Part shown: positions 4,773 to 61,732 of the stretch, piece by piece | How the letters are laid out: every line of letters starts with the position of its first letter | How positions within the stretch are numbered: the stretch's first letter is position 1 | Origin: Lachnospiraceae bacterium | GTDB taxonomy: Bacteria > Bacillota > Clostridia > Lachnospirales > Lachnospiraceae | DNA: 64,000 bases | Direction of reading: 5' to 3' | NCBI GenBank assembly: GCA_021770785.1 | Contig: JAETQH010000013.1 | Location: 1 to 64,000, forward strand | Position numbers and translations under genes: made by a program | The notes under the pieces: generated by a model | Seen by the model: the letters and a program-made list of their open reading frames with translations, nothing else | The model's database searches: none | What the model was told of the DNA's origin: nothing

Positions 4773-4801
4773 AAAGCCCTTGTTTTTTACAAGGGCTTTT
4801 T
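4773..4801 (+). terminator. Rho-independent terminator after acpP
   Basis: AAAGCCCTTGT pairs with ACAAGGGCTTT around a T-rich loop and is followed by a T-run. Confidence 0.92.
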
Positions 4802-4802
4802 A

Positions 4803-4890
4803 TGCACACAGGTGCGGAGCGGAAGGTTGCAGCAGGAGCTGCCCGCACCCGGCGCAGCGAGTAGGGAAAGAAGAATCTTCCCTACTCGAT
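4803..4890 (+). repeat. Dispersed two-hairpin element, copy 1
   Basis: First of three related elements (others at 13495-13576 and 35271-35355). It begins TGCACA and has a variable hairpin, GGTGCGG (4811-4817) with CCGCACC (4843-4849) and an inner GCAGC/GCTGC stem. After a GGCGCAG linker comes the conserved hairpin CGAGTAGGGAA (4858-4868) with TTCCCTACTCG (4878-4888), then ATTA. It lies just after the acpP terminator and before rnc. No T-run follows, so it is not an ordinary terminator. Confidence 0.8.
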
Positions 4891-4979
4891 TACTATAACT
4901 TTATCGAAGGTTTTTTCCTGTCTTACGGAGCGGGTATCAGGTAACACAGAAAAAAGCCTCTGAGAAAACGGAGGATATT

Positions 4980-12147: not shown

Positions 12148-13494
12148 ATGGCATTTGACAGTTTATCTGAAAAACTTCAAAATGTATTTAAAAACCTTCG
12201 CAGCAAGGGACGCTTAACCGAGGATGATGTCAAGACAGCCTTAAAAGAAGTCAAGATGGCGCTTTTAGAGGCGGACGTCAATTTCAAGGTGGTAAAGCAG
12301 TTCGTGAAAGATGTGCAGGAGCGGGCGGTAGGACAGGACGTCATGAACGGCTTGAATCCGGGACAGATGGTCATCAAAATCGTAAACGAAGAGATGATTA
12401 AGCTGATGGGGTCCGAGACCACGGAGATTGCCCTAAGACCCGGCAAAGAGCTGACGATTATCATGATGGCAGGTCTGCAGGGTGCAGGTAAAACCACCAC
12501 CACCGCGAAGATAGCCGGAAAGCTGAAGGCGAAGGGCAAGAAGGTTCTCTTAGCAGCCTGTGACGTTTACCGTCCCGCAGCCATTGAACAGCTGCAGATT
12601 AACGGGGAAAAACAGGGTGTGGAAGTATTCTCCATGGGAGATAAGAACACTCCGGTAAATATTGCAAAAGCGGCTGTGGAACATGCCAGCAAGCATGAAT
12701 TTAATGTGCTGATTATCGATACCGCAGGACGTCTTCATATTGATGAGGACATGATGGCGGAATTGGTTTCCATAAAAGAAAATGTTCCGGTATTCCAAAC
12801 CCTGTTGGTGGTGGACTCCATGACAGGTCAGGACGCAGTGAATGTTGCCAAGATGTTTGATGAAAAAATCGGCATTGACGGCGTGGTACTGACGAAGTTA
12901 GACGGTGACACCAGAGGCGGTGCGGCCCTCTCTATCCGGGCGGTTACCGGAAAACCGATTTTGTATGCCGGTATGGGGGAAAAGCTTTCGGACTTAGAAC
13001 AGTTTTACCCTGAGCGTATGGCATCCCGTATTCTTGGCATGGGAGATGTGCTGACGCTGATTGAGAAGGCGCAGGAAGAATTCGATGAGGAAAAAGCGAA
13101 AAAAATCGAAGATAAAATGCGCAAAAATGAATTTGACTTTGAGATGTATTTAGAGTCCATGAGTCAGATGAAAAAAATGGGTGGTCTTTCGAGTATTCTT
13201 GGCATGATGCCGGGGCTTGGGGGAGGAAAAATGCCGGAGATTGACGAGGCGGCAGCGGAAAAGAGCATGGCGCGCACCGAGGCAATCATATTTTCCATGA
13301 CCGTAGAAGAAAGACAGAATCCGGCTCTGTTAAATCCCAGCAGAAAACGCAGGATTGCCCAGGGAGCCGGTGTGGATATTGCAGAGGTCAATCGTCTTGT
13401 AAAGCAGTTTGAGCAGACGAAAAAGATGATGAAGCAGATGCCCGGCATGATGAAAAAAGGCAAAAGAGGAATGTTTAAAGGCTTTCCTTTTTGA
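12148..13494 (+). CDS. ffh: Signal recognition particle protein Ffh
   Basis: Ffh binds signal sequences and 4.5S/6S-like SRP RNA and delivers ribosomes to FtsY. The 448-residue GTPase has an N domain (1-95), G motifs GLQGAGKTTTTAK (about 109), DTAGR (about 190) and TKLDGD (about 248), and a methionine-rich M domain (about 300-448) with GMMPGLGGG and the basic tail MMKKGKRGMFKGF. The SRP RNA gene is not in this window. Copy 2 of the dispersed two-hairpin element begins at the base after its stop codon. Confidence 0.97.
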   Translation: MAFDSLSEKLQNVFKNLRSKGRLTEDDVKTALKEVKMALLEADVNFKVVKQFVKDVQERAVGQDVMNGLNPGQMVIKIVNEEMIKLMGSETTEIALRPGKELTIIMMAGLQGAGKTTTTAKIAGKLKAKGKKVLLAACDVYRPAAIEQLQINGEKQGVEVFSMGDKNTPVNIAKAAVEHASKHEFNVLIIDTAGRLHIDEDMMAELVSIKENVPVFQTLLVVDSMTGQDAVNVAKMFDEKIGIDGVVLTKLDGDTRGGAALSIRAVTGKPILYAGMGEKLSDLEQFYPERMASRILGMGDVLTLIEKAQEEFDEEKAKKIEDKMRKNEFDFEMYLESMSQMKKMGGLSSILGMMPGLGGGKMPEIDEAAAEKSMARTEAIIFSMTVEERQNPALLNPSRKRRIAQGAGVDIAEVNRLVKQFEQTKKMMKQMPGMMKKGKRGMFKGFPF

Positions 13495-13576
13495 TGCACA
13501 GGGGTGCGTAATGTATATTGCTGCTTCGCAACACGCACCCCGCGCGGCGAGCAGGGAAAAATCTTCCCTACTCGAT
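13495..13576 (+). repeat. Dispersed two-hairpin element, copy 2
   Basis: TGCACA begins directly after the ffh stop. The variable hairpin is GGGGTGCGT (13501-13509) with ACGCACCCC (13533-13541). After GCGCGG comes CGAGCAGGGAA (13548-13558) with TTCCCTACTCG (13564-13574), one mismatch, and then ATTA. The first stem differs in sequence from copies 1 and 3 but is perfectly paired. It separates ffh from rpsP. Confidence 0.8.
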
Positions 13577-13613
13577 TAAATAATCAGTAAATTATTTAAG
13601 GAGGTGAAATGTA

Positions 13614-35233: not shown

Positions 35234-35264
35234 AAACTGGGTACAATCTATGTACCCAGTTTTT
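35234..35264 (+). terminator. Rho-independent terminator after msmX
   Basis: AAACTGGGTAC pairs with GTACCCAGTTT around a 7-nt loop and is followed by TTTTT. Confidence 0.92.
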
Positions 35265-35270
35265 GTTCGT

Positions 35271-35355
35271 TGCACAGCCCCATGCAGAGGAAGTATGCCG
35301 CTGAAGCGGCGCATGGGGCGCGCGGCGAGTAGGGGAAAATTCTTCCCTACTCGAT
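35271..35355 (+). repeat. Dispersed two-hairpin element, copy 3
   Basis: TGCACA is followed by the variable hairpin GCCCCATGC (35277-35285) with GCATGGGGC (35311-35319) and an inner CCGCT/AGCGG stem. GCGCGG then leads into CGAGTAGGGGAA (35326-35337) with TTCCCTACTCG (35343-35353) and ATTT. It lies between the msmX terminator and the CdaR-like regulator. The first stem is fully paired yet unrelated in sequence to those of copies 1 and 2. Confidence 0.8.
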
Positions 35356-35396
35356 TTTTAAATAACGGTTTTCAGAAAGGGATTGTAGGAAAATAT

Positions 35397-59873: not shown

Positions 59874-60194
59874 GCTTTGGGCGGCAAAAGGGGGGCTGGA
59901 GTTACGGTTATGGGGGCGGAGCGCACAGGGAGGGCTTTGTTTTTGTTTCGTTGTCCGGAGATAAGATGTTCTAAGAAATCTGCTGCGGGGGGTGGCGGGG
60001 GAGGGACGTAAACGGTCCGAAGGCGCCGTCCCTGGCGCCGTCGAACCTCGCCCAGCCTTCCGTGGCTGGGCGTTACTGTGTATCGGGCAGATTTCTAAGA
60101 ACATCTAATCTCCTCCCAAAGTCACAAAAACAAAGCCCTCCCTGTGCACTCTGTCCCATAACCGTAACTCCAGCTCCTTTTGCCGCCCGAAGCT
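59874..60194. mobile_element. ~320-bp palindromic element, copy A
   Basis: The two ends of this element are about 105-bp inverted copies of each other (GGCGGCAAAAGG and GGAGTTACGGTTATGGG near 59880-59915, complemented near 60150-60187; AAGAAATCTGC at 59972-59982 complemented at 60087-60097). The centre contains a perfect GCCCAGCC/GGCTGGGC hairpin (60050-60071) and GGCGCC repeats. No transposase is encoded. Copy B lies at 61413-61732 in the same orientation; the C39-like peptidase lies between. Confidence 0.82.
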
Positions 60195-61412: not shown

Positions 61413-61732
61413 GCTTCGGGCAGCAAAAGGGGGCTGGAGTTACGGTTATGGGAGCAGCGGGCATAGGGAGGGCTTTGTTTTTGTTCCGATGTTCGGAGAT
61501 AAAATGTTTTAAGAAATCTGCTGCCGGGGGGTGGCGGGGTAGGGACGTAAACGGTTCGAAGGCGCCGTCCCTGGCGCCGTCGGACCTCGCCCAGCCATCC
61601 GCGGCTGGGCGTTACTGGGTATCTGGCAGATTTCTAAGAACATCTAATCTCCTTCCAAAGTCACAAAAATAAAGCCCTCCCTGTGCCCGCTGTCCATAAC
61701 CGTAACTTCAGCCCCTTTTGCCGCCCGAAGCT
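61413..61732. mobile_element. ~320-bp palindromic element, copy B
   Basis: Very similar to copy A over its whole length, in direct orientation, with the same arms and the same central GCCCAGCC/GGCTGGGC hairpin (61589-61610; loop ATCCGC, against TTCCGT in copy A). Variation is scattered. No reading frame of note. It begins 21 bp after the C39-like gene stop. Confidence 0.82.

Follow-up and report, generated by a model that had tools for sequence, protein, structure and literature searches.

The DNA stretch analyzed in the current work (hereafter "the window", 64,000 nucleotides in length) carries three copies of a short structured repeat, all located on the + strand, at positions 4803-4891, 13495-13577 and 35271-35356, which is within one base of the ends given in a preliminary description of the same sequence. 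That description had also placed all copies between genes, and this is borne out by the Pfam assignments of their neighbors. Copy 1 is found in the vicinity of genes specifying a PlsX-type protein, an acyl carrier protein and RNase III, being situated between the latter two, while copy 2 is flanked by the genes for Ffh and ribosomal protein S16, and copy 3 by those for an ABC transporter ATPase and a PucR-type regulator. The repeat folds into a stem interrupted by an 11-nt bulge of GGAA type (hairpin B) plus a second hairpin (hairpin C), and each copy is preceded by a further hairpin with a T-run, here referred to as its target (Table 1).

Table 1. Positions of the three window copies, their constituent hairpins and the hairpins preceding them
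Feature	Position	Strand	Basis
Copy 1 target: terminator-like hairpin AAAGCCCTTGT/ACAAGGGCTTT with T-run	4773..4801	+	sequence reading
Copy 1, 88-bp insert, GCACA...CGATT	4804..4891	+	empty site in G070; R1 95.1 bits
Copy 1 hairpin B	4803..4857	+	covariation
Copy 1 hairpin C (CGAGTAGGGAA/TTCCCTACTCG)	4858..4888	+	
Copy 2 target: weak hairpin AAAGG/CCTTT with T-run, at the end of ffh	13477..13492	+	sequence reading
Copy 2, 82-bp insert	13496..13577	+	empty in G070 and further relatives; R1 77.7 bits
Copy 2 hairpin C, with one mismatch, CGAGCAGGGAA	13548..13574	+	
Copy 3 target: terminator-like hairpin AACTGGGTACA/TGTACCCAGTT with T-run	35235..35264	+	sequence reading
Copy 3, ~85-bp insert	35272..35356	+	empty in G070; R1 106.1 bits
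Copy 3 hairpin C, followed by ATTTTT	35326..35353	+	terminator-like in consensus terminator scan

In copy 1, hairpin B is composed, in this order, of a TGC foot, a 9-bp stem, the 11-nt bulge with its GGAA, an inner stem and a GC-rich foot. The conserved 11-bp hairpin of the preliminary description, corresponding to hairpin C, does recur in all copies, but its stem is perfect in copy 1 only, there being one mismatch in two of the three 5' arms. The arm CGAGTAGGGAA is encountered six times in the window when one mismatch is allowed, as compared to a mean of 1.0 and a maximum of 4 in shuffled sequence. Comparison with empty sites (see below) indicates that the inserts, reading GCACA...CGATT, begin one base after the start previously assigned to them.

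The target hairpin of copy 1 is located 3' of the acyl-carrier-protein gene and occurs without an insert in the related genome G070; that of copy 2, whose start is immediately preceded by the ffh stop codon, also occurs in relatives whose site is empty, and that of copy 3 is found in relatives that lack the insert. None of these three upstream hairpins was listed by the consensus terminator scan, the absence of the copy 1 target probably being due to a pairing that uses up the T-run.

A search of the whole window against Rfam 15 returned only two hits, both elsewhere than the copies and both representing TwoAYGGAY RNA motifs (RF01731) on the - strand, at 59950-60120 and 61488-61659, with scores of 131 and 118 bits and approximately 1.5 kb between them. 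In a permissive Rfam 15 search with copies 1 and 3, E-values were 0.27 or worse and scores far under the gathering scores.

Copy number, fold and relatives of the family

The genome that contains the window (246 contigs totaling 4,991,463 bases; contamination listed as 6.93%) harbors 41 occurrences of the 11-mer TTCCCTACTCG, the reversed control being present once. A covariance model, designated R1 and made from 16 full copies aligned by sequence, yielded 58 matches at E<=0.01 in this genome, 54 of which are below 1e-4. Counting by covariance model, as suggested in the preliminary description, thus revealed many more copies, and together with the absence of an Rfam family this supports the view expressed there that the copies represent a new family of structured elements between genes; had a named element been matched exactly, this would have spoken against that view, but no such match was obtained in the libraries searched. 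The elements are approximately 82-90 bp in size and contain no ORF. Subfamilies within the genome differ strongly in their stems (for example GCCCCATGC/GCATGGGGC, CGGGTGCGG/CCGCACCCG and CGGGCACCC/GGGTGCCCG), whereas their feet and the 11-nt bulge (about AGNGGAAG) are alike and the second hairpin is the same, and near-identical copies occur at unrelated places. At four loci of this genome (L099, L102, L061 and L088) one to three units of the small palindrome GAAGATAAATCTTC are added to hairpin C, so that hairpins are nested in hairpins.

The fold displays compensatory changes. In the alignment of the 16 copies, for which the structure was assigned after single-copy folds (DNA z-scores of -3.5 to -7.1), all nine stem-1 pairs are changed on both sides in some copies and 95.1% of the cells pair. 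The covariation score amounts to 0.373, as compared to 0.155 for shuffled alignments and 0.024-0.111 for slid controls, and two weaker measures give 12 versus 9.3 (shuffled) for pairs changed on both sides, a value reached by 10 of 500 shuffles, and 22 versus 21.3 for further pair types, reached by 226 of 500. In a many-genome alignment of 99 rows (96 of these distinct), which was fitted to the structure and so leans towards the fold, 27 of 28 pairs are changed on both sides, 95.8% of the cells pair and covariation reaches a score of 0.580 versus 0.165, with no shuffle reaching any of five measures.

Departures of the G-U and A-C type, counted with the outer three pairs left out, were present in ratios of 11:15 (16 rows), 75:55 (96 rows), 92:59 (100 rows) and 14:7 (39 rows), G-U thus being 0.7 to 2 times as frequent as A-C and higher in three of the four alignments. 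Since an A-C mismatch corresponds to a G-U pair on the opposite strand, a strand kept as RNA should favor G-U more clearly than this, and the G-U excess arises in part from the models themselves, in which G-U is scored better. The pattern is read as pairing that is maintained in the mobile lineage as a whole although individual copies decay, a role as RNA also being compatible with it.

Among 62 genomes of the same genus, 26 are positive for R1 at E<=1e-4, the highest number in a relative being 24 matches, while a broader model (R2) detected the element in 60 of 392 genomes of the order, distributed across 33 of 173 genera and families f1, f8, f11, f17 and f24; the R2 copy counts represent lower bounds because 11 candidates were scored per genome. 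The hairpin C pattern was retrieved from at least 114 stretches in named genomes, most of whose titles give Lachnospiraceae or genera which we take to be close to them, and one of which is Thalassobacillus. When R1 was applied to 100 of these (at least 114) hairpin C loci, 87 matched, 85 of them over at least 70 nt, and 13 did not, and of 19 loci inspected by eye 17 carry hairpin C without hairpin B. Such a stand-alone palindrome, AATCGAGTAGGG...CCCTACTCGATT, is found at L163, L208, L217, L229, L233, L238, L254, L256 and others, in some cases with extended arms and in one case in the Thalassobacillus record (L171). The element was not found in plasmid and phage collections; in IMG/VR two contigs match hairpin C, of which one (L281) carries the full element, and two other patterns gave no match.

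Sister subtypes were also recognized, in which hairpin B is kept and hairpin C is replaced by another palindrome, often with a T-run, while an extra palindrome (hairpin A) is located in front of hairpin B. One of these is 98-99% identical over 129-133 nt across seven genera (genomes G459, G532, G758, G063, G399, G696 and G564); in total, 34 of 397 family genomes match it in a search that scored two candidates per genome. This identity across genera is taken as a sign that the subtype spread horizontally. Several further arrangements were observed among the sister subtypes. At L405, L447 and L448, where hairpin A is that of the G030-like subtype, palindromes such as CCCCCACC...GGTGGGGG are nested between its arms. 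The arm sequences of hairpins A and C coincide (TAGTAAACGAC; GGAAACGC) at L423, L424, L438, L439 (family f11) and L415, an arrangement that gives the impression of a single palindrome placed on either side of hairpin B. A TCC/GGA combination in front of hairpin B (TAC/GTA in L423), noticed by eye, could form a pseudoknot.

Insertion sites and their polarity

Genome G070, which is 91-98% identical around the sites, is devoid of all three window copies. Its ffh-rpsP spacer reads TTTTTGAT/AAATAATC, where the filled site reads TTTTTGAT/GCACA...CGATT/AAATAATC, and its empty site between the acyl-carrier-protein and RNase III genes reads GGCTTTTTAT/ACTATAAC. At these two exact junctions the inserts of 88 and 82 bp are precise and are not accompanied by target duplication, with one end T being ambiguous; the right junction of copy 3 is approximate because its flank differs in G070. 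In addition to G070, at least five genomes (G018, G061, G080, G005 and G025) are empty at ffh-rpsP, whereas in G031 (L149) a copy of a different subfamily occupies the same point. For two of the seven copies in G070, comparison with the copy loci of our genome (best 12 matches each) gave alignments limited to the element plus a few bases. The family is therefore best read as a compact mobile element, non-coding and non-autonomous, and the empty sites in relatives lend support to the MITE-like character proposed in the preliminary description. In some relatives (L143, L145, L147, L158 and L159) the ffh-rpsP spacer carries another small palindrome, about TTAGAATTGCG...CGCATTCTAA, nearly at the place of window copy 2.

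The sequence context of the copies was assessed for those matches whose left foot is complete and which have 45 nt of flanking sequence, the target and tandem counts being confined to these, using a hairpin plus T-run test that is looser than the consensus terminator scan and was applied under the same rule to random window positions. Most copies of the genome are placed behind a hairpin with a T-run: TTTT is present within 10 nt upstream in 41 of 50 copies, a predicted hairpin in 46 and both in 38, the remaining 12 failing the joint test. For copies on other contigs these values are 60, 78 and 55 of 86, and for random window positions 244, 959 and 37 of 4000. Downstream TTTT was found for only 3 of 49 own copies, 4 of 84 contig copies and 1 of 19 copies in relatives, as opposed to 41, 60 and 10 with upstream TTTT in the same comparison sets. 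As to orientation relative to genes, a count likewise suggested in the preliminary description, 49 of 53 own copies share the strand of the upstream ORF, three are opposite to it and one has no upstream ORF, as judged with a crude ORF caller that placed 12 copies inside some ORF; this count covers 53 of the 58 own copies, four copies that follow another copy and window copy 2 having been omitted. Copies located directly behind the hairpin C of another copy were observed in 2 of 49 own cases and 6 of 84 others. From the upstream, strand and tandem counts it follows that sense hairpins with a T-rich tail represent the main target for the own type, and that the 3' end of the element itself is usable as a target too.

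For the sister subtypes with a TAGGAAA-type hairpin A, a hairpin plus T-run precedes hairpin A in 26 of 30 rows, or in at least 24 of 28 given that two of the rows are reverse-strand readings. The G030-like subtype, near-identical across genera, departs from the rule: TTT precedes 16 of 17 distinct copies, a hairpin is in front of 3 and the joint test is passed by 1. In an order-wide set (A6), the sequence right before hairpin B contains TTTT in 8 of 39 cases, a hairpin in 25 and both in 8, with a further hairpin usually intervening before hairpin B.

Candidate mobilizing enzymes and competing explanations

Among 16 protein clusters that recur at five or more places around 227 (partly redundant) element rows, no transposase was recognized by eye, the clusters consisting of frames across the element or of ordinary genes, such as one for an ABC ATPase. 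An autonomous copy was sought as hairpin C arms set far apart, and with the pattern used none was found within 5 kb at the loci examined; where hairpin A arms are 87-149 nt apart (L405 and L448), only further palindromes are present between them.

Our favored explanation, which we consider probable though far from certain, is that the window copies belong to a non-autonomous mobile family which docks behind terminators by means of a folded strand and an enzyme acting in trans. The element would travel as a folded single DNA strand, and the trans-acting enzyme would perform both its cleavage and its joining. This enzyme would read a hairpin plus a short T-rich stretch at the 3' end of the element (hairpin C with ATT) and the same signal at the target (terminator hairpin and T-run), with hairpin B and its conserved bulge as a putative recognition handle, and would cut after the target T and after the T of the donor 3' end prior to strand exchange. 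The anatomy of the element fits such a strand transfer, with the chemistry that the available portion of PMC7290912 gives for IS200/IS605. The terminator would thus be left intact in front of the element, with a terminator-like hairpin behind it. Such a scheme would explain the strand polarity, the lack of target duplication and the head-to-tail copies, and copies could persist without benefit to the host because the space behind terminators would represent a low-cost niche. A more far-reaching proposition, which we regard as doubtful, is that a recombinase of this order recognizes "hairpin plus T-tract" structurally, both at the end of the element and at terminators, and that this constitutes a new kind of DNA mobility; terminators across the genome would then act as docking sites for modular folded elements spreading both inside genera and from one genus to another.

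Y1 transposases are the best known enzymes with IS200/IS605-type chemistry, and it is conceivable, if unlikely, that the repeat is REPIN-like or derived from IS200/IS605 and is moved by a Y1 (HUH) transposase, either RAYT or TnpA, which is present now or was so recently; hairpins B and C would then represent the left and right end hairpins. The lack of target duplication and of terminal inverted repeats, the hairpins at both ends and the insertion 3' of a T-rich stretch match the description of IS200/IS605 in the available portion of PMC7290912. However, Y1 genes occur in 9 of the 26 genomes of the genus in which the element was detected and in 13 of the 36 in which it was not, and as a consequence 17 of the 26 positive ones lack such a gene, including G064, G072, G077 and G082 with 12-24 copies each; the identification of the repeat as a REP in the strict sense, offered as an option in the preliminary description, is unsupported in view of these copy-rich relatives. 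The genome under study does contain a single Y1 gene (L031, contig C239; an open frame of 133 aa), judged to be IS200-type, yet its locus is without an R1 match and its end hairpins are unlike those of the element. When R1, which may miss sister subtypes at such places, was applied to 30 of 55 Y1 places, it matched one, L336 of G030 (contig C26), where the element is located approximately 500 nt from a Y1 gene (258-aa ORF) that we take to be RAYT-like. This gene is, by eye, followed by a different palindrome, GGGGACGGGG...CCCCGTCCCC, which is absent from a repeat listing with a 40-nt limit. No guide complementary to the T-run was recognized by eye in the own type, but in sister subtypes an A-run is located behind hairpin A.

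Group IIC introns target terminator hairpins with T-runs, a preference shared by the element, and RNA-templated insertion, in which a reverse transcriptase of the group IIC intron type copies the RNA of the element into DNA at terminators, may thus be envisaged, although we deem it quite improbable. In G005 (L134, contig C107) what is presumably a group II intron-like 5' end begins directly behind hairpin C, and a weak GIIM match (L367; 23.8 bits at a cut-off of 23) lies approximately 1.3 kb beyond it; hairpin C may serve such an intron as a terminator-like target in this genome. Application of R1, with the same reservation concerning sister subtypes, to 30 of 53 GIIM places gave a match at L367 and, weakly, at L356 of G019 (E 0.022). 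Against this explanation, GIIM is present in 9 of 26 element-positive versus 12 of 36 element-negative genomes and absent from G072, G077, G082, G083 and G031, and the 86-nt element is too small for ribozyme domains and has no Rfam match. Two genomes, G072 (19 matches) and G077 (12 matches), both 99% complete, possess neither Y1 nor GIIM, while G064, with 12 matches, many of them equal-scoring, on two contigs, has no Y1 but three GIIM domains. Given the lack of association and these copy-rich genomes without both, neither Y1 nor GIIM looks like a general mobilizer, though either protein may have been present earlier and recently lost. The cis-acting RNA at transcript ends that the preliminary description had considered, be it a second terminator, an RNA stabilizer or a processing site under selection, likewise appears to have little likelihood. 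The strong covariation and slight sense bias would fit an RNA too, as would the sense orientation behind genes, the preponderance of G-U over A-C in three of four alignments, and the hairpin C with T-run of sister subtypes, which by eye resembles a terminator. Nevertheless, most own copies follow a terminator-like hairpin, at which the bulk of transcription should already have ended, sites are empty in a close relative, A-C mismatches are nearly as frequent as G-U pairs, and near-identical copies are present at unrelated places.

If the favored explanation of a trans-mobilized, terminator-docking element is correct, it would define an abundant and apparently unnamed minimal mobile family in bacteria that are common in the gut, whose unusual insertion preference, behind terminators and on one strand, leaves genes intact. 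It would also account for many "extra hairpins" behind terminators that can be mistaken for regulatory RNAs, and an enzyme that reads structure, should it indeed move the element, could represent a new tool and a new class of transposition.

Comparison with known systems

The element shares with group IIC introns an insertion behind a terminator hairpin and T-run, as seen for 38 of 50 own copies but for 1 of 17 G030-like copies; it differs from them in being 86 nt long without ribozyme domains or reverse transcriptase, and in showing no association with GIIM. A classical (DDE) MITE is rejected, as there is no target duplication at two exact junctions and the GCACA and CGATT ends are not inverted repeats.

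REPs and REPINs are small palindromic non-coding extragenic repeats associated with RAYT, according to the accessible part of PMC3116915, and resemble the element in being multi-copy small palindromes that form tandem clusters and are presumed to be mobilized in trans. Unlike a REPIN, which in the same partial source is an inverted doublet of one REP linked to a RAYT, the element consists of two unlike hairpins in a fixed order, is present in Y1-free genomes and docks behind terminators. An inverted doublet was not observed in the own copies, but a few sister subtypes share arms between hairpins A and C; a RAYT gene with the repeat beside it was not encountered in the own genome, L336 of G030 being the one RAYT-adjacent case among the 30 Y1 places searched with R1. 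With IS200/IS605, as described in the portion of PMC7290912 referred to above, the element has in common the absence of terminal inverted repeats and target duplication, the end hairpins and the insertion 3' of a short target. It differs in lacking tnpA and tnpB, several copy-rich hosts being without a Y1 gene, in the conserved 11-nt bulge of hairpin B and in the terminator hairpin that precedes the target in most own copies.

The BOX, RUP and SPRITE repeats of Streptococcus pneumoniae are likewise structured, dispersed, non-coding repeats of a Firmicute, BOX being modular and SPRITE resembling a terminator, as far as the available part of PMC3049150 describes them. Whereas the inverted ends of BOX and RUP pair together (same part of PMC3049150), the ends of the element are unlike each other, and most own copies are located behind T-runs. 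Within the open-licence literature searched, no description of such a repeat was found: a search with the hairpin sequences gave no title on such a repeat among the matches listed, and none of six terms looked for occurs in the main text of PMC3733652. As far as these searches go, a small non-autonomous mobile repeat is of a known kind, while the fold and the docking preference of the present family are new within that literature.
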